DNA of 26,135 bases from a virus: the IMG/VR virus record IMGVR_UViG_3300011115_000319, positions 1-26,135 of that record; one strand, written 5' to 3'. The notes beneath the pieces are model-generated. The model ran no database searches. It saw nothing but the letters and a program-made list of their open reading frames with translations, and was not told the DNA's origin. Within the stretch, counting starts at the first letter, position 1, and every line of letters starts with the position of its first letter. The position numbers were made by a program, and so were the translations under genes. Below are positions 5,182-17,579 of this stretch, piece after piece.

Positions 5182-5210
5182 TATATACTTAATCCGTTCA
5201 AACAGGTAAA
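5182..5210 (-). promoter_or_regulatory. Candidate late promoter for terminase operon
   Basis: Reading leftward, a TTTACC box (5210-5205) and a TATATA box (5187-5182) are separated by exactly 17 bases, close to the sigma-70-type consensus spacing. It would start transcription near 5175, leaving a leader of about 110 bases that carries the stem-loop and tandem repeat. Supported only by consensus match and position. Confidence 0.4.
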
Positions 5211-5228
5211 ACGAACACTTTTAAACAA

Positions 5229-5593
5229 ACTATTTTTATAGCCTTGTTATATCAAGGGTTTTCTAACTGCGTCACTATACTGACAGAAATATTTTGGTAG
5301 AGATACAACATATATTAGACCCTCACATTAATAAACCTAGGGTCTAATCTATCCGTTACAGACTACAGACTGCACGTAGTCTGATGGTGGTTCTGGTTGA
5401 TGTAGGTACTATCTCCCTACCGTTTCAGACTGGTCGCACTATCTACTGTTCCCTATAAAAATCAAATCGTATGCGGTTATGTTTCAGTCTGTATCAAGTC
5501 AAAGCGCTTCGCTGACTTGACACTGACTGAAGGTCTGGCTCTTGTAATTATCAAGTTGATAACTACGTAGTATGAGTGTTAAGGAGTTCGGAT
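5229..5593. promoter_or_regulatory. Divergent control region rich in dyads
   Basis: No gene seen in these 365 bases, which separate leftward late genes from rightward early genes. The region holds a 10-bp inverted repeat (ATTAGACCCT at 5314-5323 with AGGGTCTAAT at 5339-5348), an 8-bp one (CAGACTAC 5359-5366 with GTAGTCTG 5376-5383), the long hairpin at 5483-5531, a palindrome TTATCAAGTTGATAA (5548-5562) and ACTACGTAGT (5562-5571). CAGACT/AGTCTG words occur repeatedly. A weak rightward promoter may use TGGTCG (5431-5436) and TATAAA (5454-5459), spaced 17. It most resembles an early/late switch region; I see no iteron array that would prove an origin. Confidence 0.6.
5483..5537 (+). promoter_or_regulatory. 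Structured leader element, copy A
   Basis: An extended hairpin: outer stem TTCAGTC/GACTGAA (5483-5489, 5525-5531), 4x4 internal loop, inner stem TCAAGTC/GACTTGA (5494-5500, 5514-5520), AA bulge, AGCG/CGCT, three-base loop. GGTCTG follows. The string CTTGACAC, four bases, TGAAGGTCTG is shared with copy B at 6200-6247, where the stem sequences differ but still pair. It lies upstream of the SLOG gene. The embedded TTGACA could instead be a -35 box, but no matching -10 box sits at normal spacing. Confidence 0.6.
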
Positions 5594-5986
5594 ATGTACA
5601 GATTAATGATTACAGGCTCGCGCACTTGGGACGATAAGGAAGTTATCGTTCATGAGTTGCTGTTCATCGCAAAGAAGTACAAGAACGTGGTGCTGGTTTC
5701 AGGCCACGCCATAGGTGCTGACCGACTCGCAGAAGAAGTTGCGATAGGACTTGGTTGGGTTGTGGAGATTCACGAGCCTGACTGGAAGTTAAATGGTGAC
5801 AGCGCGGGATACAAGCGCAACACCACAATGCTTGAGACTGGCGTACAGGCTGTACTTGCTTTCCATAAAGACGGAAGCAAAGGTACTGCAGACGCGATTC
5901 GCAAGGCCAAAGACCGCAAGGTTCCCACACGCGTGCTCATCGAGACCACGCCTGAATGGGTAGGCGAGTGGGCAGTGACCATCTAA
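5594..5986 (+). CDS. SLOG-fold nucleotide-binding protein (YspA/DUF2493-like)
   Basis: A 130-aa Rossmann-like protein of the YspA/YpsA SLOG family, thought to bind nucleotides or nucleotide-derived ligands; the reaction is unknown. Visible motifs: N-terminal strand and loop ITGSRTW (6-12), phosphate-binding SGHAIGAD (36-43), GYKRNTTML (72-80) and SKGTADAI (95-102). Length equals a single SLOG domain. I chose ATG 5594 because AAGGAG lies seven bases upstream; an in-frame GTG at 5576 has no comparable site. First gene of the early operon and close to a DUF4326 gene. SLOG proteins occur often in phages and near nucleotide-signalling or defence genes; a role in NAD or nucleotide metabolism is inference. 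Confidence 0.85.
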   Translation: MYRLMITGSRTWDDKEVIVHELLFIAKKYKNVVLVSGHAIGADRLAEEVAIGLGWVVEIHEPDWKLNGDSAGYKRNTTMLETGVQAVLAFHKDGSKGTADAIRKAKDRKVPTRVLIETTPEWVGEWAVTI

Positions 5987-5998
5987 GTCGCTTCTTTG

Positions 5999-6024
5999 GT
6001 AGGCATAGGAACTCCTATGCCTAC
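5999..6024 (+). other. Perfect 11-bp stem-loop after SLOG gene
   Basis: GTAGGCATAGG (5999-6009) pairs perfectly with CCTATGCCTAC (6014-6024) around AACT. The palindrome TACCTTAAGGTA (6033-6044) follows. No T-run follows, so it is not a classical intrinsic terminator; RNA processing, mRNA end protection or attenuation are possible. Confidence 0.55.
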
Positions 6025-6066
6025 TGAGGTGGTACCTTAAGGTATCTCTAACAGAAAGGTACGAAG

Positions 6067-6189
6067 ATGAGACGTTACTTCAAGATGTGCGAAGCATGCA
6101 AATATAACTCAGCGTTCAAATGCTACGACTGCAATGGGCAAGCATGCGAAGTCTGCTCCGCTGGTACATGTACGTGTATTGGTGACTGA
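6067..6189 (+). CDS. 40-aa cysteine-rich mini-protein, probable zinc binder
   Basis: A tiny gene starting ATG at 6067 with GAAAGG upstream. Its 40-aa product has eight cysteines in four pairs (8/11, 19/22, 27/30, 35/37), i.e. three CxxC and one CxC motif. That pattern suggests two tetra-cysteine zinc sites or a rubredoxin-like knuckle. It has no hydrophobic signal segment, so it is likely cytoplasmic. It sits between two stem-loops, downstream of the SLOG gene and upstream of DUF4326. Phage mini-proteins of this kind often bind and redirect host enzymes, but no family is recognised. Confidence 0.7.
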   Translation: MRRYFKMCEACKYNSAFKCYDCNGQACEVCSAGTCTCIGD

Positions 6190-6199
6190 CCGCACAGTA

Positions 6200-6247
6200 T
6201 CACGGCGGTCAAGGGAAACTACGCCCTTGACACACCGTGAAGGTCTG
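6200..6247 (+). promoter_or_regulatory. Structured leader element, copy B
   Basis: Outer stem TCACGG/CCGTGA (6200-6205, 6235-6240), small internal loop CG/ACA, inner stem GTCAAGGG/CCCTTGAC (6208-6215, 6224-6231), eight-base loop, then AGGTCTG. It repeats the architecture and 3'-side sequence of copy A (5483-5537) with different but still complementary stems. It lies about 40 bases upstream of the DUF4326 start. Confidence 0.6.
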
Positions 6248-6284
6248 ATTTGTGTTCTATTCCTACTATGAAAGGTTGTGTGCT

Positions 6285-6545
6285 ATGAAAGTTCTCAATA
6301 AGCATGATGCAAGTGCAACTGCTGGTGTATACATCGGCAGAGGCAGTAGATGGGGCAACCCATTCGTGATAGGTAAAGATGGTGATAGAGCAGAAGTAAT
6401 TGCCAAGTATAGAGAATGGGCATTCCAAATGGTTAATACCGAATCATATAATTGGTTAATGCCGTTAATAGGTAAAGATTTAGTGTGCTACTGCGCACCG
6501 CTGGCATGTCATGGTGATGTGCTACTAGAAATGATAGGAGAGTAA
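6285..6545 (+). CDS. DUF4326 family protein
   Basis: An 86-aa protein matching the compact DUF4326 pattern: VYIGRGSRWGNPFVIG (15-30), a central helix AEVIAKYREW (36-45) and a C-terminal GKDLVCYCAPLACHGDVL (63-80) with three cysteines and a histidine that could bind metal. Start ATG 6285 has GAAAGG nine bases upstream. DUF4326 is widespread in phages and bacteria and has no firmly established activity that I know. The nearby SLOG gene suggests a shared nucleotide-related role, which is inference. The next gene begins one base after this stop region. Confidence 0.85.
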   Translation: MKVLNKHDASATAGVYIGRGSRWGNPFVIGKDGDRAEVIAKYREWAFQMVNTESYNWLMPLIGKDLVCYCAPLACHGDVLLEMIGE

Positions 6546-6546
6546 C

Positions 6547-6693
6547 ATGCTAGATACAATCATGGAGATAGAGTCTATAGTCAAGGCTGTAGAATCTAAA
6601 CTAATCAGCCGTACGCAAGCGAACGGGCTGATTAGAGATGTGTTAGCAGGTGTACAACCACACCCATCAACAGAAGAGGGAATCAACTCATGA
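6547..6693 (+). CDS. Small hypothetical protein, 48 aa
   Basis: ATG 6547 follows GGAGAG four bases upstream. The 48-aa product is mostly one helix (MEIESIVKAVESKLISRTQA) plus a short polar tail; no family is recognised. Its coding sequence contains a striking imperfect hairpin at 6601-6635: 10 bp, a one-base bulge, then two short inner stems. The stop overlaps the next start (ATGA), so translation is probably coupled. Confidence 0.6.
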   Translation: MLDTIMEIESIVKAVESKLISRTQANGLIRDVLAGVQPHPSTEEGINS

Positions 6694-6797
6694 CCGAAGA
6701 ACAGTACAAAGCAATACTGCATAGTATGATGTCAGATGACGGACTAATGGCACGGATAATGATGCAAGCACCAGGCACAGACAAAAGAGAGGATTAA
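6690..6797 (+). CDS. Small hypothetical protein, 35 aa, Met-rich
   Basis: ATG 6690 overlaps the previous stop as ATGA and has AGAGGG upstream. The 35-aa product has seven methionines including the start and reads as one amphipathic helix (EEQYKAILHSMMSDDGLMAR) with a charged tail. Its stop lies one base before the next start. No family recognised; support is spacing and ribosome-binding context only. Confidence 0.5.
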   Translation: MTEEQYKAILHSMMSDDGLMARIMMQAPGTDKRED

Positions 6798-6798
6798 G

Positions 6799-7332
6799 AT
6801 GAGTGAATACGCACAATCGCAAGGCATATCAGTAACCAACACATGCTATGACTGCGCCATTGCAAGTGAGTACAGCCCTGAATACAGGTGCATACCCTGC
6901 GTTGAGGACAAGGAAGGAAGAGATGACGCAATAGCCTACGAAATAGTAGATGAAGGTAACATGCAGTACAAAGTCCAATGGTCACGCACTGATGACCAAC
7001 CAAGTGGTAGTGACTGGACTGCATCAGAGACATACATCAAGCCCCAATCATGGGTTGCTAGAATGACAGAGAAATGGGACGATGACAACCCATTCCACCT
7101 CATTGAACTATCAGTTCAATTCGAGAAACCAGAAGAAGATTACCTATCACGACATGAGTTCAGTCCACCTATAGTCCAACTCATAGACGGAGGCACGCTT
7201 GATAACCTATGGGAACTAGAAGATTACACACAGTACCAGCGTGAGAAGCAGTGCCAATGGTGCAACATACTCACACCTAAGATGTTCGCTGACTGCCAGT
7301 CATGCGACAAACCGTTAGAAAACAATCTCTAA
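6799..7332 (+). CDS. Hypothetical protein with N- and C-terminal zinc-knuckle motifs
   Basis: A 177-aa acidic protein. Two CxxC pairs near the N-terminus (CYDC, CIPC; about residues 16-34) and two at the C-terminus (CQWC, CQSC; about 155-172) could each hold one zinc. The middle is an acidic, aromatic-rich domain containing YKVQWSRTDDQPSGSDW, of unknown fold. ATG 6799 has GAGAGGA seven bases upstream. It precedes the SSB-like gene, so a nucleic-acid role is plausible but unproven. Confidence 0.7.
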   Translation: MSEYAQSQGISVTNTCYDCAIASEYSPEYRCIPCVEDKEGRDDAIAYEIVDEGNMQYKVQWSRTDDQPSGSDWTASETYIKPQSWVARMTEKWDDDNPFHLIELSVQFEKPEEDYLSRHEFSPPIVQLIDGGTLDNLWELEDYTQYQREKQCQWCNILTPKMFADCQSCDKPLENNL

Positions 7333-7340
7333 CATGACAA

Positions 7341-7379
7341 CAGGGGTTCCCCCTCACTTCGTGAGAGGGGTCACCCCTG
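7341..7379 (+). other. Long bulged GC-rich stem-loop upstream of SSB-like gene
   Basis: CAGGGGT/ACCCCTG (7341-7347, 7373-7379), a TC/TC internal loop, then CCCCTCAC (7350-7357) pairing with GTGA and GGGG (7361-7370) across an AG bulge, loop TTC. Far more GC-rich than its surroundings. It lies between a stop codon and the Shine-Dalgarno sequence of the next gene. No T-run follows, so RNA processing or mRNA stability is likelier than termination. Confidence 0.6.
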
Positions 7380-7408
7380 ACCAACTAACAACAAACAAGG
7401 AGAAGGTA

Positions 7409-7741
7409 ATGAATACAATCAATCAGTTCCAAGTTAGTGGCACTCTAAAGGCGTTCACTGACAAGACAATCAAGACAAATGAATACGGTACATCCATCAC
7501 AGGCTGGCTCAACCAGCGTGAAATGGTAGACGGAACACCACGATATGTAGTAGGCGTAGGATTCCAAGCCAAAGACCCAGCAATTATCAAGCAACTCATA
7601 GCACTAGACGGAGCCCGTCAAGGTGCATCAGCATCAACACCAGTAGTACTATCAGGCAAGTTAACACAGTGGGTTGCCAAGAGTTACGGCAAAGACGAGT
7701 TCCGCTACCAACTACAGGTAGAAGGAATCACAGTACTGTAA
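7409..7741 (+). CDS. Putative single-stranded DNA-binding protein (OB-fold-like)
   Basis: A 110-aa protein whose beta-strand pattern resembles small phage SSB or PriB-type OB folds: FQVSGTLKAFTD at the start, YVVGVGFQAKD in the middle, VVLSGKLTQWVAK, then YQLQVEGITVL at the end. An SSB would coat single-stranded DNA during replication. Start ATG 7409 follows AAGGAG by six bases; the frame is open upstream to 7334, but that part encodes the stem-loop and is unlikely to be translated. Flanked by two hairpins, so it may be a separately processed mRNA. SSB identity is an inference from strand pattern, not from a diagnostic motif. Confidence 0.55.
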   Translation: MNTINQFQVSGTLKAFTDKTIKTNEYGTSITGWLNQREMVDGTPRYVVGVGFQAKDPAIIKQLIALDGARQGASASTPVVLSGKLTQWVAKSYGKDEFRYQLQVEGITVL

Positions 7742-7747
7742 TCAAGC

Positions 7748-7777
7748 AGAGGCAGGGACTAACAATCCCTGCCCTCT
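7748..7777 (+). other. Stem-loop after SSB-like gene
   Basis: AGAGGCAGGGA (7748-7758) pairs with TCCCTGCCCTCT (7766-7777) over 11 bp with a single extra C, around CTAACAA. It lies seven bases beyond the SSB-like stop in a gap of about 100 bases. Only a short pyrimidine stretch follows, so it may be a weak terminator or an mRNA end stabiliser. Confidence 0.5.
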
Positions 7778-7839
7778 TCAGTAAACCAAAGCCGTAACCT
7801 CAACGGACAACTGCAATTCCACAACACAAGGAGACAACA

Positions 7840-8007
7840 ATGATTCTATCATACGGTGATATGATTGCTTTAACTATAGCATTAGGTATAAGTCTAGTGC
7901 TTATACTTATAATGTGGTATGCTAACATACAACTGCTCAATGAAAATAGATTCCTTAAGTCAAGACTACAAGCATGGCGTAAGTCATACCAGAATAAAGG
8001 AGAGTAA
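7840..8007 (+). CDS. Small single-pass membrane protein, 55 aa
   Basis: ATG 7840 has AAGGAG six bases upstream. One hydrophobic segment (MIALTIALGISLVLILIMWY, about residues 8-27) is followed by a basic polar tail (NRFLKSRLQAWRKSYQNKGE). Probably inner-membrane with the tail in the cytoplasm. No family recognised. Ends with AAAGGAG, which forms the Shine-Dalgarno site of the next gene. Confidence 0.6.
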   Translation: MILSYGDMIALTIALGISLVLILIMWYANIQLLNENRFLKSRLQAWRKSYQNKGE

Positions 8008-8008
8008 C

Positions 8009-8365
8009 ATGGGACTAGACATGTATCTATACGAGAAGCAAACACATGAGGTTGCATATTGGCGTAAGGCTAATGCTATTCATGGTTGGATTATCAATCA
8101 TACTAATGCAGTAGATGACTGCACACCCATTGAACTACAGAAGCAGGACTTGTATGAACTGCGTGAACTATGCATTAAAGTATTAGATGTACACACAGAA
8201 GGTTACGCACAAGAAGTGCTACCACCTACACCAGGTTTTTTCTTTGGTAACAATACAATAGATGAATGGTATTGGTCAGATGTTAGTGATACTATTGACA
8301 AACTAAACAAAGCGCTTGAAGAAAGCATTGATGATGCTATCTTTGAATACCATGCATCATGGTAG
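8009..8365 (+). CDS. Conserved phage hypothetical protein (MGLDMYL family)
   Basis: A 118-aa protein starting MGLDMYLYEK, then YWRKANAIHGWIINH. This opening with the YWRKAN-IH motif marks a small protein found in many phages and bacteria with no established function that I know. ATG 8009 has AAAGGAG four bases upstream. The C-terminal half has IDEWYWSDVSDTIDKLNK. Likely cytoplasmic. It overlaps the next tiny gene by seven bases. Confidence 0.75.
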   Translation: MGLDMYLYEKQTHEVAYWRKANAIHGWIINHTNAVDDCTPIELQKQDLYELRELCIKVLDVHTEGYAQEVLPPTPGFFFGNNTIDEWYWSDVSDTIDKLNKALEESIDDAIFEYHASW

Positions 8366-8460
8366 AGCCAGAGTTAGATGACCCTATAGCATTAGGTAAA
8401 GACGAAGAAGATAATGAAGGCTACCAAGAACCTGACCGTATGTATGGAGACGAAGACTAA
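8359..8460 (+). CDS. Possible acidic mini-protein, 33 aa
   Basis: ATG 8359 overlaps the previous gene's end. The 33-aa product is very acidic, with 14 Asp/Glu and only two basic residues. No good ribosome site precedes it, so translation would need coupling. Its stop merges with AAGGAG used by the next gene. Highly acidic phage mini-proteins can mimic DNA, but this one may be chance. Confidence 0.4.
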   Translation: MVEPELDDPIALGKDEEDNEGYQEPDRMYGDED

Positions 8461-8469
8461 GGAGATACC

Positions 8470-8901
8470 TTGAACAGCAACATGAAAAGACTGCTATCTA
8501 TAGGCAGTACAATAATGCTGACGTTAACAACAATGATAGGCATGCCACTTAAGTACTACTCACAACATGTCAATGACTTGTGTATCAACAAAGATATATT
8601 GCCTAAAATATGGACACCATACATGGCAAAGATATATGCTATCTCATACATGAAGATGTGGTACCCCGAATGGGGTAGAGGTGAGCACAAAGCATTGATA
8701 AAACTATGGACTAAAGAATCTAATTGGAGACCAGAGGCTGACAACCCTGACTCAACAGCCTATGGTATAGCACAGGTATTGCACACTAAGCCTGGTACCC
8801 CAGCCCCGCAACAAGTTGCGCGGGGGCTGGAGTATATAGTTGATAGATACGATAGACCATCAATTGCATGGTCACATTGGAGGAAACATGGCTGGTACTA
8901 A
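8470..8901 (+). CDS. Secreted lysozyme-like (SLT/transglycosylase) protein
   Basis: A 143-aa protein with an N-terminal signal or membrane anchor (MKRLLSIGSTIMLTLTTMIG, about 5-24) and a lysozyme-like domain. Catalytic Glu83 lies in LWTKESNWRP, followed by AYGIAQ (97-102) and YDRPSIAWSHWRKHGWY at the C-terminus, matching small actinobacterial transglycosylase-like domains that cleave peptidoglycan glycan strands. TTG 8470 is the likely start, with AAGGAG five bases upstream; ATG 8482 is too far from it. It is unusual that a wall hydrolase sits in the early module, far from the M15 endolysin at 17777-18253. A GC-rich hairpin (8800-8830) interrupts the domain at PAPQQVARG. Confidence 0.75.
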   Translation: MNSNMKRLLSIGSTIMLTLTTMIGMPLKYYSQHVNDLCINKDILPKIWTPYMAKIYAISYMKMWYPEWGRGEHKALIKLWTKESNWRPEADNPDSTAYGIAQVLHTKPGTPAPQQVARGLEYIVDRYDRPSIAWSHWRKHGWY

Positions 8902-9058
8902 ACAATGGCAAGTAAACATAGCGTTCTTTGTGGAAGCAGACAATGATGATGATGCTTTACGCAAAGCAACAAGCACACTACGATACGGTGAAGTAGATGT
9001 AGTGTGGGCATGGCAATCAACTAAAGGAATAACAAACAAAGGAGATGCAAGTGAATAA
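8888..9058 (+). CDS. Small hypothetical protein, 56 aa
   Basis: ATG 8888 has GGAGG four bases upstream inside the end of the lysozyme-like gene, overlapping it by 14 bases. The 56-aa product (WQVNIAFFVEADNDDDALRK) has a strand then acidic loop then helix pattern, like a small alpha/beta ferredoxin-like fold. A similar phrase, TGTFQVEAEDEDEASEKF, occurs in the protein at 10658-11095, so the two may share a domain. No function known. Confidence 0.6.
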   Translation: MAGTKQWQVNIAFFVEADNDDDALRKATSTLRYGEVDVVWAWQSTKGITNKGDASE

Positions 9059-9584
9059 GACACAAGTAAAAGAAAAGATAACAGAACTAAAAGAACTATC
9101 TGTACAAGATGAAGATGGACAGTTTATAATTGGTAGTGTTGAACAACAAGAAGCAGCACGTAAAGTTGAGATGCTCTTGTTATGCACAGGTGCAGCAAGA
9201 GATGTAGAACTAACAGCAGCAGCATTACTTGCGCTTGTAGATATACAGGTACGTGACTATGCAATGGGATTAGTTAACTCAGATAACTTTAATCACTATC
9301 AACGTACATTCAAATGGTTAACTAAAATGGCACCAGTTGACTACACCAAAGCACCAACATCTATCCTTGCTCTTACATACTATGAGTCAGGTAACAATGA
9401 GTTAGCATTAACAACTTTAAAGCCAGCGTTAAATAAAGGTTATTCACTAGCCATATTACTTAAGCGTGTAGTTGAAACAGGCTGGCCTCTTGGTGCATTC
9501 GCAGGTATGCGAATAGAACTACATCCTAAAGTAACAGCAGGTATATTCGGAGAGGAAACAAATGACAACAGCAACAAAAAATAA
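9051..9584 (+). CDS. DUF4192 family protein
   Basis: A 177-aa protein resembling the DUF4192 family, which is largely actinobacterial: LTAAALLALVDIQVRDYAMG, then TKAPTSILALTYYESGNNELA and ALNKGYSLAILLKRVVETG, an all-helical arrangement. Its role is unknown. I prefer GTG 9051, six bases after AAAGGAG; ATG 9045 would directly abut that site. It overlaps both neighbours (8 and 23 bases). This gene is one of the better host clues. Confidence 0.75.
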   Translation: MNKTQVKEKITELKELSVQDEDGQFIIGSVEQQEAARKVEMLLLCTGAARDVELTAAALLALVDIQVRDYAMGLVNSDNFNHYQRTFKWLTKMAPVDYTKAPTSILALTYYESGNNELALTTLKPALNKGYSLAILLKRVVETGWPLGAFAGMRIELHPKVTAGIFGEETNDNSNKK

Positions 9585-10569
9585 ATCAGCATGGGTAAGA
9601 GGTGGCACTGCAGTCAGTGCTACCTCAGCATCCAGCGCAGCCCAGCAAGCAGGACTAAACTGGACTGTGCGCACAGGTGAACTACAAGCAGTAAGTTCAC
9701 CATTAACTATAGATGAGAATGGTGTAACACCAGCCACATACATAGATGTACCCAAGAAGCAAGCAATTATCCGAGAGGATAACAACACAGTCATCGGTGT
9801 AGTAGGTGGCAAGTACAAGATGGTGCAGAACATGGAAGTATTCAATGCACTAGATACACTAGTAGACTCAGGTGATGCACGCTATACAGCAGCAGGTGAG
9901 TTCAATGGTGGTGCTAACATCTGGATGATGCTTGAGTTACCTCAAGGTATCAACGTAGCGAATGACCCACATGCTGCATTCCTACTAGTCAAGACATCAC
10001 ATGATGGCTCGTCATCAGTAGTAATCAAGCCAGTGATTGAGCGTTTGTTCTGCCAGAATCAAGTCAACGGTTTGATTAGCAAGGGCTTTGCCCGTGGAAC
10101 CAAAGGTTACAATGACTATACATATCGTATGACACACTCAACCAATCAAGAACTATCTATTCAAGACATCCGTAACATTACTAACCTAACTTATACTGCT
10201 ATCCAAGACTATGAGTTAACAGCAGATGTACTGTTACAACGCAAGATGACACGAGAGCAAGCAGTTAACTTCTTCAAGGCAGTATGGCCTTTACCTAGCA
10301 TAGTAGAAGACAAGCCATACGACCTGCTTAGTAGAGGTGAGCGTAAGCAACAGACTATAGCAAAGGATGCACGTGCTAGTGCATGGGCTATCTACTCAGA
10401 GTCAGAGACGCAAGAGAACATCAGAGGCACAGCCTTCGGTGCATGGCATGCAGTAGTAGAACATGCTGACCACTACGCAACGGGTGGCGCGTCCCGGCTT
10501 GCCGCTGCCACCCTGAGTGGACGCAATGATAAAGTAAAGACTAAGGCATTGTCTTTACTTACTGTATAA
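9562..10569 (+). CDS. DUF932 / phage-plasmid-like protein
   Basis: A 335-aa protein of the DUF932 type (also called phage/plasmid-like protein). Seen: a substrate-independent N-terminal part VVGGKYKMVQNMEVFNALD, the central FLLVKTSHDGSSSVVIKPV and ERLFCQNQVNGLI, and a C-terminal GTAFGAWHAVVEHADHY, the order typical of the family. Function unsettled; members are common on phages and plasmids and are often near recombination genes. ATG 9562 has GGAGAGG upstream. Two hairpins lie inside it (9600-9625 and 10482-10513), the second in the sequence for TGGASRLAAATL. Confidence 0.8.
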   Translation: MTTATKNKSAWVRGGTAVSATSASSAAQQAGLNWTVRTGELQAVSSPLTIDENGVTPATYIDVPKKQAIIREDNNTVIGVVGGKYKMVQNMEVFNALDTLVDSGDARYTAAGEFNGGANIWMMLELPQGINVANDPHAAFLLVKTSHDGSSSVVIKPVIERLFCQNQVNGLISKGFARGTKGYNDYTYRMTHSTNQELSIQDIRNITNLTYTAIQDYELTADVLLQRKMTREQAVNFFKAVWPLPSIVEDKPYDLLSRGERKQQTIAKDARASAWAIYSESETQENIRGTAFGAWHAVVEHADHYATGGASRLAAATLSGRNDKVKTKALSLLTV

Positions 10570-10570
10570 T
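10565..10570 (+). promoter_or_regulatory. Candidate -10 box TATAAT
   Basis: A perfect TATAAT overlaps the end of the DUF932 gene, about 90 bases before the next start. No -35 match lies at 15-18 bases, so an internal promoter would need an activator. The following leader contains GTATGCATAC and a CATACT/AGTATG pair that could form a stem. Confidence 0.3.
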
Positions 10571-10657
10571 TCTGTATGCATACTGCTTAGGCAGCGATAG
10601 CGCAGATGCACCTGAGTATGTGGATAAACTACTCACCACAAACAACGAGAGGAAAAC

Positions 10658-11095
10658 ATGAACACAATATCAATCCCAGATGGAGAGAACGGTGCTATGA
10701 TTACATACACAGACAATGAGGTATCACGCATGGTTGCTGACCTTAAGTACTGCAAAGAAAGAAGCGTGTCCCTTGGAGAAGCAAACACTAGCCTCAGCAA
10801 AGATATCGGTAAGTTACGTAACTTGGTGCGTGACTTCTTCAGTGAAGTTGAATGGGTTGCTGGTGAACAAACAGTCAGCAAGAGTGACATCAATGAGTTA
10901 CTTGAATCAATCGGCGCACGTAGACTTACCACTACATATGGTGGTTCATTCACCATCACAGGTACCTTCCAAGTAGAAGCAGAAGATGAAGATGAAGCAT
11001 CAGAAAAGTTCACAGAAAATGTTGATGTTAACTTCTATGAAGGTGACATTACTATAGATGATACAACAACAGATGATGTATCAGAAGATTACTAA
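10658..11095 (+). CDS. Hypothetical acidic protein, 145 aa
   Basis: ATG 10658 follows GAGAGGA. The N-terminal half is a probable coiled coil (NEVSRMVADLKYCKERSVSL through KDIGKLRNLVRDFF). The C-terminal half is beta-rich (GGSFTITGTFQVEAEDEDEA) and ends in an acidic tail. The second half resembles the small protein at 8888-9058. Not a family I can name. It ends in TAATG overlap with the next gene, and sits after a structured leader. Confidence 0.65.
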   Translation: MNTISIPDGENGAMITYTDNEVSRMVADLKYCKERSVSLGEANTSLSKDIGKLRNLVRDFFSEVEWVAGEQTVSKSDINELLESIGARRLTTTYGGSFTITGTFQVEAEDEDEASEKFTENVDVNFYEGDITIDDTTTDDVSEDY

Positions 11096-11274
11096 TGAGT
11101 AAACAACTACAAGATAAACTAGACTGTGCTGCCAAAGCATGTGAGCCAGTGCTACATGAGTTACTAAATGAAATAAGTAAACCATCATGGTCATGCTCTA
11201 CATGTGGTGCAACCACAACAAACCCAGAGAATATGTTGATTACATATTTTCATATGAACTGTCCAGGAAAATAA
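11095..11274 (+). CDS. Small protein with CxxC zinc-finger-like motif, 59 aa
   Basis: ATG 11095 overlaps the previous stop (TAATG). The 59-aa product has a helical start (QLQDKLDCAAKACEPVLHEL), then CSTC and, near the end, HMNC, giving a possible C2HC zinc site. It resembles small actinophage zinc-finger proteins only in general pattern. No ribosome site is obvious, so translational coupling is likely. Confidence 0.55.
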   Translation: MSKQLQDKLDCAAKACEPVLHELLNEISKPSWSCSTCGATTTNPENMLITYFHMNCPGK

Positions 11275-11404
11275 ACTTGGCGACATGCCAGCATCATCAT
11301 ACATAGTCCGTCAAACTATGCTATGATGAGGATAGGTTAGGGGTGGCAGGGTTTTGGTTCTCTCCTTGTTCCTGCTTCCCTAACCTACTTAACAAGGGAG
11401 AACT
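11275..11404 (+). other. Intergenic region with two large stem-loops
   Basis: No gene seen in 130 bases. First hairpin: TCATCATACATAGT (11294-11307) pairs over 14 bp with ACTATGCTATGATGA (11315-11329), with one bulged C. Second: TAGGTTAGGG/CCCTAACCTA (11333-11342, 11378-11387) encloses GCAGG/CCTGC (11346-11350, 11371-11375). The region separates accessory genes from the replication genes, so it is a natural place for transcript processing or regulated readthrough. A weak promoter (TTGGCG 11277, TACATA 11300, 17 apart) could also exist. AAGGGAG at its end serves the nuclease gene. Confidence 0.6.
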
Positions 11405-12178
11405 ATGACAGTAGAGATAACAAGAGATAGATACGGTAGACCTATGGTAGTGCCACCTAAAGGTGGCAAAACAGTACCATACACACGCACTACAACAGTT
11501 GCAGGTTCATTAGATGATGGCACTGCATTAGTAGCATGGAAGTTACGCATGGCAGCAGCAGGTTTAACCCTGCGTCCTGACCTATTGTTGGCTGCAAGTG
11601 CAGCAAGAGACAACAAGTTAGAGATGGATAAATTAGTAGAGGATGCTATGCAAGCAGCAGGTGCAACAGCACAGGCTACTATAGGCACAGCTATACATAC
11701 ACTGACAGAGAAGCACGACAGGGGCGAAGACCTTGGAGTGATACCAGAAGATTATGTTGCAGACATACAAGCATATGATGCAGCAACCAGACAGTTTGAA
11801 AATGTATTTATTGAACAGTTCTGCGTGTTGGACAAGTACAAGATTGCAGGTACACCTGACCGCATAGTTAGATACAAAGGAGAGTTGTTTATCTCTGACC
11901 TAAAGACTGGTAGTATTGCTTATCCAAATAAGATTGCCATGCAGTTAGCCGTGTATGCTCACGGCCTGCCGTATGACCCTGCTACGGCAGTCCGTAGTAG
12001 TTGGGGAGATGTGAACCAAGAACGTGGTATCATAGTCCACCTACCAGCAGGTAGTGGCAAGTGTGAACTACACTTTGTTGACATCAAGCAAGGATGGAAA
12101 GGCATAGAACTAGCAATGAAAGTTCGTGCATTCCGAGATACAAAGAAACACCTAGTAACATCTATCCAAGGAGAATAA
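11405..12178 (+). CDS. PD-(D/E)XK nuclease (RecB/Cas4-like exonuclease)
   Basis: A 257-aa protein with the catalytic signature of RecB-type exonucleases: GTAIHTL (94-100), the first acidic residue in AGTPDRIV (Asp152), the D-x-K core in ISDLKTG (Asp165, Lys167) and QLAVY (180-184), the motif IV Q-x3-Y. No conserved four-cysteine iron-sulphur cluster is visible, which separates it from typical Cas4. It should degrade or resect DNA ends during recombination or clear host DNA. ATG 11405 follows AAGGGAG by four bases. It heads the replication block; the next gene starts directly after the stop. Confidence 0.85.
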   Translation: MTVEITRDRYGRPMVVPPKGGKTVPYTRTTTVAGSLDDGTALVAWKLRMAAAGLTLRPDLLLAASAARDNKLEMDKLVEDAMQAAGATAQATIGTAIHTLTEKHDRGEDLGVIPEDYVADIQAYDAATRQFENVFIEQFCVLDKYKIAGTPDRIVRYKGELFISDLKTGSIAYPNKIAMQLAVYAHGLPYDPATAVRSSWGDVNQERGIIVHLPAGSGKCELHFVDIKQGWKGIELAMKVRAFRDTKKHLVTSIQGE

Positions 12179-12664
12179 ATGCCAAGTACCGAAGCACCTA
12201 TCAGCATCACAGTTAAAACAGCAGCAGGTTCTCTTGTTACTGTTCGCGCCGAAAGTGGTGATGAACTAGACCAAGTAGTAGCCATGTCTTTAGCATCACT
12301 AGCATCAGCAGTACATGAGTTAGAAGCAGCAGTCAAGCCTACTAACACAGCAGTACCACCTAGCCCACAGATAGCAGATATTTCAAGACAGTTTGATGGA
12401 ACTGTAATAAATACAGTACCAACAACACCTCCATATACAGCACCGTTTGTTCCAACAGCATACACTAATGTAACTGAAGGTCAACGTCTATGTCCTCACG
12501 GTAATATGACACGCATTCATGGATTAACAGGTAAGTTTGGCCCATACAAAGGCCACTTCTGTCCAGCCAAACAGGGTGACATGACTAAGTGCACCACACA
12601 ATACATTAAACCTAATCAGCCAGCAGAATGGAATAGTTTCCAAGCCGACCAAACAAAGGCATAA
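12179..12664 (+). CDS. Hypothetical protein with C-terminal zinc-binding domain
   Basis: A 161-aa protein. Residues 1-60 have a strand/helix part (ISITVKTAAGSLVTVRAES), residues 60-100 a Pro/Thr-rich linker, and residues 104-145 a probable zinc domain: LCPHG, GPYKGHFCP and a later Cys before TTQYIKP, a pattern common in actinophage replication modules. Likely DNA-associated, but function unknown. Starts immediately after the nuclease stop and abuts the ATPase gene; AAGGAG precedes it. Confidence 0.7.
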   Translation: MPSTEAPISITVKTAAGSLVTVRAESGDELDQVVAMSLASLASAVHELEAAVKPTNTAVPPSPQIADISRQFDGTVINTVPTTPPYTAPFVPTAYTNVTEGQRLCPHGNMTRIHGLTGKFGPYKGHFCPAKQGDMTKCTTQYIKPNQPAEWNSFQADQTKA

Positions 12665-13480
12665 ATGAAAACATTACGCCGTAGTATAGGCAAGCCAGAG
12701 GTGGGGGGCGAACCATTACCCCCACCTTTTCAGGCTTTCCAAAGAGAAGGTATGATACTTAGGCGAGCAGAAGTAACTGTAATTGCAGGTACACCTGGCG
12801 CAGGCAAGTCATCTATTGCATTACATATCGCAGCAAGACTTAAACAACCAACACTATACTTCTCTGCTGATACTAATGCACATACCATGGCTATGCGATT
12901 GCTCGCAATGAAAGCAAAGATAACACAAGGACATGCTGAACATATGTTAAAAACAGAACCAGTCAAAGCAGAAGAACTCTTACGAGAGTTCTCTAATTTG
13001 TACTGGTCATTTGAACCTAGCCCTACCCTTAATGATTTAGATGCAGAGGTATCTGCATTTGAAACTATGTGGGGTAGAAGTCCAACGCTTATCGTAGTAG
13101 ATAATCTTATGGACATAGCAACAGATGGTGGTGAAGAGTTTGCTGCTATGCGACAAGTCATGAAAGAACTTAAGTATCTTGCAAGAGATACCAATGCATG
13201 TGTATTAGTATTACATCATACTAAAGAAGGTGCACTAGGTTATCCATGTCAACCACGCTCAGCACTACAAGGCATGGTATCGCAGATACCAGCAATGGTA
13301 CTAACAGTAGGACAGATGATGCAAGGACAAGACATATACTTGTGTGTTGCACCTGTTAAGAATCGTTATGGTAAAGCAGACCATAGTGGTCAGACATATG
13401 TATCCTTATCATTTGACCCTGCTTCTATGTATCTTGAAGATATACTTAGAGACTATAGACAAACAGAAATGATTGTGTAA
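12665..13480 (+). CDS. RecA/DnaB-type P-loop ATPase, probable replicative helicase
   Basis: A 271-aa ATPase with Walker A GTPGAGKSS (42-50), Walker B TLIVVDN (141-147) and a following LVLHHTKEG (182-190) typical of DnaB/RepA-family RecA-like domains. Its length fits a helicase core without the DnaB N-terminal domain. It probably unwinds DNA at the phage fork with the primase encoded downstream; a recombinase (RecA/Sak4-like) is the alternative. A 9-bp GC-rich hairpin (12692-12737) lies at the N-terminal codons. The end overlaps the resolvase start by one base. Confidence 0.8.
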   Translation: MKTLRRSIGKPEVGGEPLPPPFQAFQREGMILRRAEVTVIAGTPGAGKSSIALHIAARLKQPTLYFSADTNAHTMAMRLLAMKAKITQGHAEHMLKTEPVKAEELLREFSNLYWSFEPSPTLNDLDAEVSAFETMWGRSPTLIVVDNLMDIATDGGEEFAAMRQVMKELKYLARDTNACVLVLHHTKEGALGYPCQPRSALQGMVSQIPAMVLTVGQMMQGQDIYLCVAPVKNRYGKADHSGQTYVSLSFDPASMYLEDILRDYRQTEMIV

Positions 13481-13824
13481 TGAGTAGCGCAGCCAAAGCC
13501 AAAGGTTCAGGAGCAGAACGTGATGTAGTTAAATACCTTAAGCAATGGTTCCCATATGTAGATAGGCGATTGGCTGGTGCTACGTTAGACAAGGGAGATA
13601 TTTCTGGTATCCCTGGCTGCACAATAGAGATTAAAAACCACGCCAAGATGGACTTGGCGGGGTGGACAGAAGAGTTGATAGTCGAAATGGCTAACGACAA
13701 AGCATGGACAGGTGTAGTGTGGCACAAACGAAAGGGTCGGGGCAACCCAGCCGATTGGTACTGCACTATGCCTGGCTATGTATATGTAGACTTACTAAGG
13801 AGAGCATTAAATGAAAATAAATGA
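13480..13824 (+). CDS. Holliday-junction resolvase-like PD-(D/E)XK nuclease
   Basis: A 114-aa protein with the small resolvase/endonuclease pattern: KGSGAERDVVKYL (8-20; Glu13), KGDISGIPG (38-46; Asp40), and TIEIKNH (48-54; Glu50, Lys52), giving the E...D...ExK active site. Such nucleases cut branched DNA left by recombination before packaging. TAATG overlap with the helicase gene; the following gene starts inside its last codons. A hairpin (13638-13665) lies in the active-site coding region just after IEIKNH. Confidence 0.85.
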   Translation: MSSAAKAKGSGAERDVVKYLKQWFPYVDRRLAGATLDKGDISGIPGCTIEIKNHAKMDLAGWTEELIVEMANDKAWTGVVWHKRKGRGNPADWYCTMPGYVYVDLLRRALNENK

Positions 13825-13975
13825 GTTTGAAGAATATCAAGAAGTAACTACACTTGATTCAATTGCTATATTAGCAAGAGCAATTCTTCTTAACAGAGTT
13901 AGTATTGTAGCCTTGCCAGATAAAGATAAGACTGTATCTTATCGCATAGTTGTAGACCCACTTGAGTATGAATGA
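13811..13975 (+). CDS. Small hypothetical protein, 54 aa
   Basis: ATG 13811 has AAGGAGAG upstream within the resolvase gene. The 54-aa product is acidic with a helix (LDSIAILARAILLNRVSIV) and a short beta hairpin. No family recognised. It overlaps the primase N-terminal gene start by eight bases, as in a coupled operon. Confidence 0.55.
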   Translation: MKINEFEEYQEVTTLDSIAILARAILLNRVSIVALPDKDKTVSYRIVVDPLEYE

Positions 13976-14348
13976 CAAACCAAAAATTGAAGAGTATCTC
14001 AACTACATAGGCGCAACCGTGCCCGCTATGGGCAGCGGTTGGCGCAAGATGAAATGCCCGTTCCACGTAGATTCACACGCAAGTGCAGCAGTAAACTACG
14101 ATAAAGGTGCATTCATATGCCATGGTTGTGGAGTTAAAGGTGATGTATACTCACTCATAATGTATAAAGAAGGAGGAGATTTTCATGAGGCTGTCAAGTT
14201 CGCAACGTCAGTTCTTACTACAGGCAACACAGAGATACGCAGCAAAGATAGAACTCGCAACAGATTATCTAGCAAGCCGTCAACTCTCGGTAGAAGAGGC
14301 AAACATCTTTCATCTGGGGGTGGTAGACGAACCTCTTCCAGGACATGA
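13968..14348 (+). CDS. Primase zinc-binding (CHC2) part
   Basis: A 126-aa frame. Residues 1-75 are a DnaG-type zinc-binding domain: CPFH (Cys30, His33), then ICHGCGVKGD (Cys51, Cys54) and DVYSLIMYKEGGDFHEAVKF. This domain recognises single-stranded template for primer synthesis. The last 50 residues are low-complexity (RTRNRLSSKPSTLGRRGKH) and overlap, in another frame, the catalytic part (14185-14820). Either the two halves are separate chains or one is shifted +1 into the other. ATG 13968 is used; an in-frame TTG lies at 13962. The stem-loop at 14011-14045 falls in VPAMGSGWR. Confidence 0.8.
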   Translation: MNDKPKIEEYLNYIGATVPAMGSGWRKMKCPFHVDSHASAAVNYDKGAFICHGCGVKGDVYSLIMYKEGGDFHEAVKFATSVLTTGNTEIRSKDRTRNRLSSKPSTLGRRGKHLSSGGGRRTSSRT

Positions 14349-14820
14349 GCCATATAAAAATAGACTTGCTATACCATACATCACACCATCAGGTGTGGTT
14401 GATTTAAGATTCCGTAGTATAAATAATGAAGACCCCAAGTATATGGGATTAGTCGGTGCTAAAACTACGATGTTTAATACACAAGCATTATTTGCAGCAG
14501 ACAAATACATATGTGTAACCGAAGGAGAGTTTGATTGTATTATGATGTCAGTCAAAACAATACATCCAACAGTAGGTATACCAGGGGCTAACAACTGGAA
14601 GCCCCACTATGTTAAACTATTGGATGACTTTGAAACAGTGATAGTATTAGCAGACGGAGACGCAGCAGGACTAGAGTTCGGCAAGAAGATAAGTAGGGAA
14701 CTAGGCAATGTCAACATCATTAGTATGCCTGATGGTGAAGATGTCAATAGTATGATAATCAAGAAGGGAAGTAACTGGATACATGAACGAATCGAACAAT
14801 GTATTTCCACCATTAGATGA
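14185..14820 (+). CDS. Primase catalytic part with Toprim domain
   Basis: A 211-aa protein: residues 27-80 match the actinophage DnaG-like core (DYLASRQLS, HLGVV, PGHEPYKNRLAIPY, VVDLRFRS), and residues 108-175 are a Toprim domain (VTEGEFD with Glu113, LADGDAAG with Asp157 and Asp159) that binds metals for RNA-primer synthesis. The frame is +1 relative to 13968-14348, with 164 bases of overlap. AGGAGG eight bases before ATG 14185 supports independent initiation, but a frameshift or assembly error could also give a single fused primase. Confidence 0.8.
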   Translation: MRLSSSQRQFLLQATQRYAAKIELATDYLASRQLSVEEANIFHLGVVDEPLPGHEPYKNRLAIPYITPSGVVDLRFRSINNEDPKYMGLVGAKTTMFNTQALFAADKYICVTEGEFDCIMMSVKTIHPTVGIPGANNWKPHYVKLLDDFETVIVLADGDAAGLEFGKKISRELGNVNIISMPDGEDVNSMIIKKGSNWIHERIEQCISTIR

Positions 14821-15097
14821 TAGGTTTTGGGAACATCTCAAACACTTAGACTTTTCTATTGCTATACCAATCTCACAAACTAAGATGCTTAATATCTTGG
14901 GAGCACTAGAAGATATATATATTGCACTGGCTAAAAATAACATAGAAGATGCAACCATGTACCTTACAGCATTAGGTGCACTGCTAGTAGCCTCTAAGTA
15001 TGACAAGGCAGATGAAGTATGGGAAGAGTTAGTAGTAAAAGAAGCAATGCATAACTTTGATAAGCATTTGAAAGAGGTAATAGATGAAGAACAGTGA
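14783..15097 (+). CDS. Hypothetical all-helical acidic protein, 104 aa
   Basis: ATG 14783 lies inside the primase end (38-base overlap). The product is helical and acidic, with LNILGALEDIYIALAKN and ATMYLTALGALLVASKYDKA in the middle and KEAMHNFDKHLKEVIDEEQ at the end. No motif I can name. It overlaps the Nmad1-like gene by 14 bases. Likely a small replication or nucleotide-metabolism accessory by position only. Confidence 0.6.
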   Translation: MNESNNVFPPLDDRFWEHLKHLDFSIAIPISQTKMLNILGALEDIYIALAKNNIEDATMYLTALGALLVASKYDKADEVWEELVVKEAMHNFDKHLKEVIDEEQ

Positions 15098-15398
15098 TGA
15101 TGTAGACGTAATCTTAAATGAACTGGCAACAATTCTATATAAAAAACATGAAGATTATGGTCCAATGAATATTGCTGGAGCACCAGGTGGCCCAATGAAT
15201 GGGCTACGAGTACGCATGTATGACAAGTTGGCTAGACTTGCACACCTTGGAGATAACGACACGCCGAACTATGAATCCGTGGAAGATACTCTTATTGACC
15301 TAGCAAACTATGCTATAATTGGTTTACTAGTCCAACGTGGACAATGGGAAGGCATACCTAATGGCGCAGCGAAGCAGACGGATAGTAGTCCTCAGTGA
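15084..15398 (+). CDS. Nmad1-like (DUF1599) nucleotide-modification-associated protein
   Basis: A 104-aa protein resembling Nmad1/DUF1599: KKHEDYGPMNI (20-30), GPMNGLRVRMYDKLARLAHL (36-55) and YESVEDTLIDLANYAIIGLL (63-82). The spaced acidic residues E64, E67, D68 and D72 recall MazG-type all-helical nucleotide pyrophosphohydrolases, so hydrolysis of a (d)NTP is plausible. The family is named for its association with phage nucleotide-modification genes. GAGG precedes ATG 15084. It overlaps the phosphoesterase gene by 38 bases. A hairpin at 15187-15207 lies in the GGPMNG-coding stretch. Confidence 0.75.
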   Translation: MKNSDDVDVILNELATILYKKHEDYGPMNIAGAPGGPMNGLRVRMYDKLARLAHLGDNDTPNYESVEDTLIDLANYAIIGLLVQRGQWEGIPNGAAKQTDSSPQ

Positions 15399-16110
15399 CT
15401 TACAGATTCCGTACCAAGACAACCGAATAGTAGATGCAACACTAGAGTTTATAAGATATTACAAGCCAGATGAACTCTGGTGTGTAGGAGACGAACTAGA
15501 TGCACCCGAACCTAGTCGTTGGAACAAAGGAATGGCAGGAGAATACGCAGAAACATTACAGGACAGTATAGATTTAACGCACGAGACAATGGCTAGTTAC
15601 CGTAAAGCATTAGGTAACAAGCCATTTGTTATTCAACGTAGCAATCATACTGACCGCATTGATACATATATACGTAAGTATGCACCAGCATTTCAATCAC
15701 TTGATTCATTAAAGATTGAAACTCTGTTAGGCTACGACAAGTTAGGTATCACATACCTTCATAAGATGAAGGAACTATTACCTGGTTGGGTAATGGCACA
15801 CGGAGATGAAGGCGCACTTAACCGTGCACCTGGTGCTACTGCACTTAACTTAGCAAAACGATTAGGCAAATCAGTAGTGTGTGGACACACACATAGGGTA
15901 GGTCTACAACATGAAACATCAGGAATGTATGGAAAAACCAGTACTTTATACGGGTTAGAGGTCGGTCACATGATGGACATGTCAAAGGCTCACTACCTAA
16001 CATCAGGTTCTGCCAACTGGCAGCACGGCATAGGTATACTTGTAGAGACTAACCGCAAGGTTACTCCATTTGCTGTACCTATCGTCAATGGTGAGGTACT
16101 CATTCCATAA
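15361..16110 (+). CDS. Calcineurin-like metallophosphoesterase
   Basis: A 249-aa protein with the full two-metal phosphoesterase set: LSDLQIPY (Asp13; Gln replaces the usual His), GDELD (43-47), NH (95-96), AHGDE (146-150) and GHTHR (175-179). GNH is replaced by SNH. Substrate unknown: such phage enzymes may act on nucleotides, cyclic nucleotides or DNA ends. I use ATG 15361 with GAAGG nine bases upstream; ATG 15337 is possible. Overlaps Nmad1-like by 38 bases and abuts the sigma-like gene (TAATG). Confidence 0.85.
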   Translation: MAQRSRRIVVLSDLQIPYQDNRIVDATLEFIRYYKPDELWCVGDELDAPEPSRWNKGMAGEYAETLQDSIDLTHETMASYRKALGNKPFVIQRSNHTDRIDTYIRKYAPAFQSLDSLKIETLLGYDKLGITYLHKMKELLPGWVMAHGDEGALNRAPGATALNLAKRLGKSVVCGHTHRVGLQHETSGMYGKTSTLYGLEVGHMMDMSKAHYLTSGSANWQHGIGILVETNRKVTPFAVPIVNGEVLIP

Positions 16111-16733
16111 TGTCTTACATTGAAGAATACAATATGTTAGTACAACAACTTGCTAGTGAGTATGCTAAGCGTTACACTATAGTGGAACGTAATGACATAG
16201 CACAAGAGTTGTGGGTATGGTTTGTTGCACATCCCCGTAAGTACAAAGAATGGTTAGAGTTAGAACAGAAAGACCGTGATAAGATAATTGCTAAATCATT
16301 ACGAAACGCAGCACTTAAGTTCTGTGAACGAGAGAAGGCTAAGCATAGTGGTTATCAATCATCTGATTTATATTATTATGATGCATCAGTAATAGAAACA
16401 TTTCTTCCTTCTATTATTAGTAACTCATATGAAATGCCATCAAAAATACAAGACTTAAACTCTAAGTCTGGTGGCAGTGTACTAAGTGAAGGCAATAACT
16501 GGCTAACATTAAGGTCAGATATAGCAAAGGCTTACTATAAACTTAGTGAAGCAAAACAAAATATACTACGTCTACGATTTAGTATTGAGCAACCTGACTG
16601 GACAGAGTTAGGTAAAGAAATGGATAGCACACCAGATGGTGCGCGCATGAAAGTACAACGAGCAATCAATTCTATTATCAAAATATTAGGTGGATGGAAA
16701 CCATACCGAGATGACGATGCAACAAGTAGTTGA
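16110..16733 (+). CDS. Sigma-70-like factor (phage)
   Basis: A 207-aa protein with a region-2-like N-terminal helical part (VERNDIAQELWVWFVAHP; KSLRNAALKFCEREKAKH) and a C-terminal region-4-like helix-turn-helix (AKQNILRLRFSIEQPDWTEL, then PDGARMKVQRAINSI). It would steer host RNA polymerase to phage promoters, or may only bind DNA. ATG 16110 overlaps the previous stop. It opens a cassette of four regulators. Region 2 is weak, so it could be a sigma-fold DNA-binding protein without promoter-melting ability. Confidence 0.7.
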   Translation: MSYIEEYNMLVQQLASEYAKRYTIVERNDIAQELWVWFVAHPRKYKEWLELEQKDRDKIIAKSLRNAALKFCEREKAKHSGYQSSDLYYYDASVIETFLPSIISNSYEMPSKIQDLNSKSGGSVLSEGNNWLTLRSDIAKAYYKLSEAKQNILRLRFSIEQPDWTELGKEMDSTPDGARMKVQRAINSIIKILGGWKPYRDDDATSS

Positions 16734-16902
16734 CCTAACAGGTGAGCCTACCTTTGCATGCATATGCGGTTGTAAGATGTTTAAAGTTATAGTAATGTGG
16801 GATGAAGAAACCAGAGCAGTTGGCTGGTATGATTTAAAACAAGAATGTATTGCATGTGGTACTCTAACCACTGCACCTACCGAGATAGATGGATATGAGT
16901 GA
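16711..16902 (+). CDS. Small zinc-ribbon protein
   Basis: A 63-aa product in the frame after the sigma-like gene. It has CICGC (about residues 18-22) and ECIACG further on (two CxC/CxxC knuckles flanking MFKVIVMWDEETRAVGWYD), a zinc-ribbon arrangement seen in small transcription-related proteins. Start uncertain: ATG 16711, 16717 or 16690 are all in frame; 16711 is chosen by overlap with the upstream stop. It overlaps the FmdB-like gene start (TGATG). Confidence 0.6.
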   Translation: MTMQQVVDLTGEPTFACICGCKMFKVIVMWDEETRAVGWYDLKQECIACGTLTTAPTEIDGYE

Positions 16903-17063
16903 TGCCTAATTATGACTTCAAGTGTAACTTTTGTAGCGCAGTGGTGGAAGTACAAGACCCGCTCCCGCCAGTCTGTTCTACCTGTAGCAACACAATGGTA
17001 CGAATCTGGACAGCCCCAGCCATTAAGTTTAACGGCTCGGGATTCTACAGCACAGGAGGATAA
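16902..17063 (+). CDS. FmdB-like zinc-ribbon protein, 53 aa
   Basis: The start MPNYDFKCNFCSA, then CSTCSN and a C-terminal APAIKFNGSGFYSTGG match the small FmdB-type putative regulatory zinc-ribbon proteins (CxxC ... CxxC). Common in actinobacteria and their phages; real function uncertain, perhaps transcriptional. ATG 16902 overlaps the previous stop. Its end provides AGGAGG for the WhiB gene three bases on. Confidence 0.8.
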   Translation: MPNYDFKCNFCSAVVEVQDPLPPVCSTCSNTMVRIWTAPAIKFNGSGFYSTGG

Positions 17064-17065
17064 GC

Positions 17066-17323: not shown

Positions 17324-17331
17324 GAGGAAAC

Positions 17332-17490: not shown

Positions 17491-17503
17491 AAATAGAAAA
17501 AGA

Positions 17504-17538: not shown

Positions 17539-17552
17539 CTTCTAGTCTCTAC

Positions 17553-17568: not shown

Positions 17569-17579
17569 TTAAACAAGGG

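Follow-up and report, generated by a model that had tools for sequence, protein, structure and literature searches.

In preQ1- and SAM-II-type riboswitches, pairing between a loop and the Shine-Dalgarno sequence (SD) is the regulatory contact. Among phages with double-stranded DNA (dsDNA) genomes, structured cis-regulatory RNAs are little known beyond T4 and a few models. The leaders of T4 gene e and Aeh1 mobE carry intramolecular structure at the translation start of the gene, which blocks the ribosome-binding site and is inferred to lower translation (PMC3014915), and the leader of T4 gene 32 folds into a pseudoknot through which the single-stranded DNA-binding protein (SSB) regulates its own synthesis (PMC3014915, PMC535899), perhaps the sole viral case of its type in translational autoregulation (PMC3014915). 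Here we describe the stem-loops in the early region of IMG/VR virus record IMGVR_UViG_3300011115_000319, of which the whole, 26,135 bases, was analysed (the window). The early region carries selected stem-loops, kept through compensatory change in related phages, and the set is not one single kind of element. Sequence comparison makes it fairly probable, in our judgement, that they act mainly on mRNA, post-transcriptionally, and that one of them, a leader hairpin, controls translation of an exonuclease gene by pairing of its loop with the SD. The stem-loops would then locally control how translation starts, how stable the mRNA is and where transcripts end.

An earlier note on this DNA had picked out 16 stem-loops by eye, in and between early genes, and had allowed that their number could partly be chance. 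All 16 fold where they were listed, at −12 to −30 kcal/mol, and the hairpins observed exceed those in dinucleotide- and codon-shuffled sequences, the test that the note had posed. The + strand of 5200-17500 holds 48 local hairpins of ≤−15 kcal/mol, where dinucleotide shuffles give 25.0 ± 4.0; at ≤−18 kcal/mol the numbers are 25 observed and 7.2 ± 2.3 shuffled. Within the early genes only, where synonymous codon shuffles of the single genome preserve each protein and its codon usage, the counts are 39 versus 18.5 ± 2.9 and 18 versus 5.9 ± 1.9 at the same two thresholds, and 0 of 100 shuffles reached either. The same kind of excess is found in 5/5 relatives examined. It is strongest in the early genes but not unique to them: the late genes, on the minus strand, have 43 hairpins of ≤−15 kcal/mol compared with 27.0 ± 3.9 in codon shuffles, a weaker excess than the early one. 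Chance is contradicted for most sites by the shuffles and by conservation, and fits 15187-15207. The scan also adds stems that the earlier note did not have (11443-11482, 12092-12142 and 14103-14150), and the note had made neither of two points developed below, that the loop of the hairpin at 11333 is complementary to a downstream SD and that two of the listed hairpins are copies of one element. All stem-loops and genes given below by coordinates are on the + strand.

The evidence throughout is comparative, the relatives being metagenome contigs: a helicase search gave at least 80 related loci, and two further genes added 37, some on the same contigs. For eight positions (7361, 7757, 8811, 10494, 11356, 11456, 11983 and 12713), 80-100% of loci have a hairpin of ≤−14 kcal/mol in the orthologous place, the mean per position being 0.057; a few of the fractions come out slightly above 1 where the aligned base is absent and are to be taken as “all”. 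The stem is retained in all or most relatives at 7341, 7748, 8800, 10482, 11294, 11333, 11961, 12692 and 13638, and in part of them at 9600 and 14011. Across more than 100 related loci, pairing is conserved, with compensatory changes, at most of the sites for which the earlier note had raised the question; the site at 15187-15207 has no consensus stem, its relatives mostly fold at −5 to −8 kcal/mol, and a conserved structure there is not supported. For the coding sites, synonymous codons were shuffled among relatives column by column, which preserves the proteins and codon columns and breaks the pairing. Pairing lies above this null at 10/10 coding sites, with z from 3.7 to 20.9, values that somewhat overstate significance because the null ignores relatedness. 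Control genes (terminase, a tail gene and several early genes) show almost no such covarying windows.

The gene at 11405-12178 encodes a Cas4/RecB-like exonuclease, a PD-(D/E)XK nuclease (PHROG 466, E 2e-64; Pfam PF12705 above cut-off), and two hairpins occupy the interval between gene 11097 and its start. The upstream one, at 11294-11329, has the loop CCGTCA and compensatory changes in 5/7 inner pairs. The second, the leader hairpin at 11333-11387, has an imperfect stem of ~20 bp and an 18-nt loop, TTTTGGTTCTCTCCTTGT, complementary to the SD region of the exonuclease gene, AACAAGGGAGAACT, at 11391-11404. Its stem measures 16-24 bp and its loop 12-20 nt in relatives, and it is seen in nearly all of the 60 upstream regions read, L045 and L081 being without it. 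It is present in both phages cultured on ‘Ca. Planktophila’, F5 and E7 (PMC10202952). In an alignment of 39 sequences (A1), 96.8% of the leader cells are paired, compared with 88.6% when shuffled and 39-59% when slid, and the stem has 100 double-change cells versus 27.6 in shuffles; G-U was counted 64 times in it and A-C 6 times. Stems unrelated in sequence hold the loop at the same place in L063, L064, L043, L072, L080 and F5/E7.

The loop of the window, CTCTCTCCTTGTT, is complementary to the exonuclease’s own SD region, AACAAGGGAGAAC, and in phage F5 the SD GACAGGAG goes with the loop CTCCTGTC. The loop-SD duplex is predicted at −17.6 to −18.7 kcal/mol, and the exonuclease start is the strongest of the 29 gene starts tested in the window. 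When loops and SDs were swapped among 15 lineages, the own pairing was the more stable (permutation p = 0.0003), and it ranked first in L080 and F5. A structural descriptor found the leader, always at the exonuclease, in 12/14 family genomes scanned (the window, both cultured phages and 9/11 further relatives); in L010 and L024, which it missed, the leader can be read directly in the sequence. The remaining matches in family genomes carry unrelated loops, and the descriptor gave no convincing equivalent in the exonuclease regions of Mycobacterium, Streptomyces and Microbacterium phages. Two marks of an SD-sequestering leader are found here, a covarying upstream structure and a complementarity that follows changes in the SD (weakly in L064), and they point to a candidate translational control element, an RNA control element that is apparently new.

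In the mechanism that we propose, a short transcript would begin at or shortly before the hairpin, which would present its pyrimidine-rich loop, the loop would pair with the exonuclease’s own SD, and translation of the exonuclease would be lowered until the pairing is released, for which a protein such as the SSB-like product or the nuclease itself, or mere mRNA concentration, are candidates. Most relatives retain an extended −10-like box, TGCTATGAT, at 11319-11327, within the 3′ arm of the hairpin at 11294-11329; it may be a promoter box, in which case the leader stem would come first in the transcript. The linker between stem and SD is 0-9 nt long, as against a stem of 16-24 bp. A static H-type pseudoknot of the T4 gene 32 type fits poorly, as such a linker is too short to span the stem unless the lower stem opens. 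Given this linker, the full stem and the loop-SD pairing could hardly coexist in one molecule, and the stem is by far the more stable of the two. A static pseudoknot therefore appears less likely than a switch by opening of the lower stem, or than pairing of one transcript with another.

Inside coding regions, two stems that bear G-U lie close to the start of their genes: 9600-9625, 38-63 nt after the start of the DUF932 gene (z 4.8; G-U 22, A-C 4), and 12692-12737, 27-72 nt after the start of the DnaB-like helicase gene, where a hairpin is found in 96% of loci (z 20.9 at 12714; G-U 46, A-C 4). At the latter the pairing register shifts among relatives and stability is retained, so what is kept is a hairpin at that place and not given base pairs. 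The exonuclease gene holds three stem-loops, at 11443-11482, 38-77 nt after its start (80% of loci; z 3.7; G-U 19, A-C 5), at 11961-11995 (80% of loci; z 5.5; no G-U excess; codons nearly invariant) and, a weaker one, at 12092-12142 (z 8.2 at 12110; G-U 35, A-C 14). The primase zinc-finger gene has one at 14011-14045, 43-77 nt after its start (z 14.0 at 14028; G-U 12, A-C 12), which is strong in only part of the relatives, and a second at 14103-14150 (z 9.7 at 14125; G-U 44, A-C 0). No G-U excess is seen at 8800-8830 in the transglycosylase-like gene (95% of loci; z 5.2) or at 10482-10513 near the 3′ end of the DUF932 gene (83% of loci; z 7.2). In the resolvase-like gene, the synonymous compensatory changes of the stem at 13638-13665 (z 6.4) can be seen directly: CCAAG/CTTGG, CTAAG/CTTAG and GACA/TGTC. 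The stems at 6601, 9600, 11443, 12692 and 14011 are centred ~50-70 nt after the start codon, an observation made post hoc. The G-U-bearing stems in coding regions, at least four of them, most likely act as mRNA structure near gene starts, to judge from their pairing.

An SSB-like gene with an OB fold, at 7409-7741, is bracketed by two hairpins. Its predicted structure (AlphaFold pLDDT 88.7) has bacterial SSBs as best Foldseek matches (E 4e-6, prob 1.00, 9-19% identity); the product has no Pfam match, and the gene has no match in the stretches of F5 and E7 examined. The stem-loop directly 5′ of it, at 7341-7379, is in every relative read, and its sequence is wholly exchanged among relatives: the 28 distinct stems hold 432 Watson-Crick pairs, 3 G-U and 6 A-C. 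The earlier note had seen bulges on the 3′ side of several stems. This describes 7341-7379 well (over the 28 stems, 26 bases bulge on the 3′ side and 6 on the 5′ side) and is reversed at the 11333 hairpin (2 versus 48) and in the two-copy element described below (3 versus 9). The hairpin 3′ of the gene, at 7748-7777, comes in 37 distinct stems with 77 G-U versus 4 A-C, and a T-run follows it in many relatives (L096, L099, L103 and others), the T-run of the window being weak; it is most likely a transcription terminator in many relatives and would set the mRNA end. Together, the two hairpins most likely determine the ends of the SSB-like gene’s mRNA and how stable it is, and a stabilising or processing role there is plausible. 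T4 gene 32, itself an SSB gene, has an mRNA that is special in structure and stability (PMC3014915) and may be cited as a precedent, by analogy only.

G-U and A-C were counted with a strand-neutral stem finder. At six sites (7748, 9600, 11333, 12092, 12692 and 14103) there are 288 G-U versus 32 A-C, as expected for RNA of the + strand. At seven others (7341, 8800, 10482, 11961, 13638, 14011 and element E, the two-copy element at 5483-5537 and 6200-6247) there are 26 versus 69. Inherited cells are counted repeatedly and the sets were defined from these very counts, so the counts separate the sets and leave strand and molecule unfixed. Of the roles that the earlier note had proposed, those at the mRNA level gain ground at a subset, namely the six sites with a G-U excess. 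The Watson-Crick-only set is selected as well and would act at the RNA or the DNA level.

Several observations weigh against an action mainly on mRNA and against loop-SD control. In L064 the loop-SD pairing is poor, −2.7 by the same method, and in L024, L063 and L072 many foreign loops pair better with the SD than the own loop does. The loop also pairs with other early SDs, at −13 to −16 kcal/mol, so the complementarity comes partly from the likeness of SDs to one another. The hairpin alone is at −23 to −37 kcal/mol and the loop-SD pairing at about −11, so that the SD may be free at equilibrium. At the seven sites G-U is not above A-C, a misfit with + strand RNA, and the hairpin excess in the late genes means that some of the surplus is common to the genome at large.

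A rival reading places these seven sites at the DNA level: 7341-7379, element E, 8800, 10482, 11961, 13638 and 14011 would form hairpins in extruded or single-stranded DNA, and the machinery of replication or recombination would recognise their shape. G-U is nearly absent from them (3 beside 432 Watson-Crick pairs and 6 A-C at 7341-7379; 0 beside 165 Watson-Crick pairs and 9 A-C in element E), while 141 are counted at leader and terminator in these genomes (Fisher p 2e-18); their stem sequence is free and their pairing perfect, nothing is shared in sequence between sites, and they lie within the replication-gene region. The A-C cells, however, are partly one inherited mismatch counted repeatedly, very stable RNA stems would likewise avoid G-U, and no hairpin-binding protein of the HUH or Y1 type was identified. 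GC-rich stems, moreover, extrude poorly from duplex DNA. We consider DNA hairpins rather unlikely, and it is unlikely too, to a slightly greater degree, that a dsDNA phage family keeps Watson-Crick-only, shape-read hairpins in and between its replication genes, their stem sequence free to change, possibly as extruded or single-stranded DNA, as a new kind of structural element beside the RNA leader. The scarcity of both G-U and A-C would also follow if perfect stems were kept mainly by mutation, template switching at palindromes copying changes to the other arm under little selection, as would fast-changing stems with identical flanks such as 5999-6024 in the window and L082. Such copying leaves the presence of hairpins at the same place in nearly all relatives unexplained, and the loop-SD match too, and stems in coding regions survive via synonymous changes with register shifts; we regard it as improbable.

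Ordinary transcription terminators and mRNA 3′ ends would account for the T-run at 7748-7777 in many relatives and for 17500-17542, a GC-rich hairpin where the early and late genes converge that is found in all relatives covering the position and is likely a terminator. No T-run follows 7341-7379, element E, the leader or the stems in genes, and terminators within replication genes would be self-defeating. A terminator scan gave 13 terminator-like sites versus 8.1 expected, none of them at the listed hairpins other than 7748-7777, except a minus-strand site at 13641-13659, and it is very improbable that the hairpins as a whole are of this ordinary kind. Amino-acid and codon composition, for instance Gly-Gly..Pro-Pro giving GG/CC pairing, fits 15187-15207, and the protein-preserving null is already low at 12692 (−14 kcal/mol) and 8800 (−19 kcal/mol). 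Yet real sequences beat that null, with z up to 20.9, and codon shuffles never reach the observed count; chance of this sort is refuted for most sites and scarcely credible as a general account. Of the hairpin-type promoters in single-stranded DNA that the earlier note had also offered, those of the N4 type do not fit. They have a short stem, a 3-nt loop, a shared sequence and a cognate virion RNA polymerase (the gene for which was not searched in the missing part of the genome), and the hairpins here have long stems, differing loops and no sequence shared between sites.

Some stem-loops are confined to part of the family. The earlier note had held that the stem-loops carry different sequences and form no simple repeat, which does not apply to the pair at 5483-5531 and 6200-6240, two copies of one element, element E. 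Copy 1 (5483-5537), 5′ of gene 5594, has the stem TCA..TCAA(variable)TTGAC..TGA, then AGGTCTGG, and is kept with compensatory stem changes in L005 and L082-L087. Copy 2 (6200-6247), 5′ of gene 6285 (DUF4326), has the outer pairing GACC/GGTC and is kept in L005 and L083-L087. Both copies are thus found in L005 and L083-L087, and the short locus L082 shows copy 1. They share TCA..TCAA(stem)TTGAC..TGAAGGTCTG, and the core common to 5483-5537 and 6200-6247 is TCA..TCAA(variable stem)TTGAC..TGAAGGTCTGG. The longer, specific pattern occurs in 7 viral contigs, most of them already among the relatives, so element E belongs to a subgroup of the family; the short pattern TTGACN{4,9}TGAAGGTCTG, with 120 stretches in the collection, is too unspecific to interpret. 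A promoter with TTGAC as −35 box was rejected, no fitting −10 being present at 16-18 nt. At 6268-6288, ATGAAAGGTTGTGTGCTATGA encodes MKGCVL in a frame of six codons, the stop of which overlaps with where gene 6285 starts, and much the same sequence lies 3′ of copy 2 in relatives. The genes that the two copies precede, a SLOG-family gene (YAcAr) and the DUF4326 gene, lie close together in 5594-6545 with one small gene between them. A perfect 11-bp hairpin 3′ of gene 5594, at 5999-6024, is seen in one relative only, L082, in which the stem is largely exchanged and the flanks are identical on both sides. The stem-loop at 6601-6635 in gene 6547 is kept in L113 (87% identity) only and is absent at ~60% identity.

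The replication and early module spans ~5.6-17.3 kb on the + strand. Besides the SLOG-family protein (YAcAr), DUF4326, SSB-like, transglycosylase-like, DUF932 and Cas4/RecB-like exonuclease genes, it holds those for a DnaB-like helicase, a RusA-like resolvase, a two-part primase, a sigma-like factor and WhiB. The helicase is 54% identical to that of F5 and E7, and WhiB together with the match to both cultured Planktophila phages points to a freshwater actinophage of the Nanopelagicales group. The primase lies in two overlapping frames, a CHC2 zinc-finger part at 13968-14348 and a Toprim part at 14185-14820, which could be two genes or a programmed frameshift. A search of the window found no tRNA or tmRNA, and a sigma-70 promoter scan gave no signal (24 sites, 31.4 expected). 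Rfam release 15 gave 0 matches in the window at gathering score, and at E ≤ 5 on 5200-17600 nothing except an unrelated sub-threshold rliG match.

The stem-loops described here form a covarying set in the replication region, in phages akin to ones that infect abundant freshwater bacteria, and some of them lie within coding sequence, a place that annotation pipelines pass over. The leader is common to both cultured ‘Ca. Planktophila’ phages, which makes it directly testable, and the Watson-Crick-only set raises the question of DNA versus RNA level, which the relatives at hand can sharpen. A search of the literature on phage anti-SD-loop leaders, intragenic actinophage hairpins and conserved RNA structures in phage coding sequence, with subscription journals mostly outside its scope, found nothing directly relevant. 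With intrinsic terminators the set shares a GC-rich stem after a gene at 7748-7777 and 17500-17542, the former with a T-run in many relatives, whereas the other sites are without T-runs and many are inside genes. The preQ1 and SAM-II riboswitches resemble the leader in the regulatory contact between loop and SD; here no conserved ligand pocket was seen and there is no Rfam match. The T4 gene 32 leader is alike in belonging to a replication gene, in being structured and in a possible pairing of a loop with downstream sequence. It differs from the leader described here, which has no known bound protein, precedes an exonuclease gene and would engage the SD itself in the pairing, with a long stem and a linker of 0-9 nt. 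T4 gene e and Aeh1 mobE likewise have structure at the translation start; in the exonuclease leader, by contrast, the SD lies outside the stem and finds its match in the apical loop of a hairpin further upstream, the stem of which is free in sequence.

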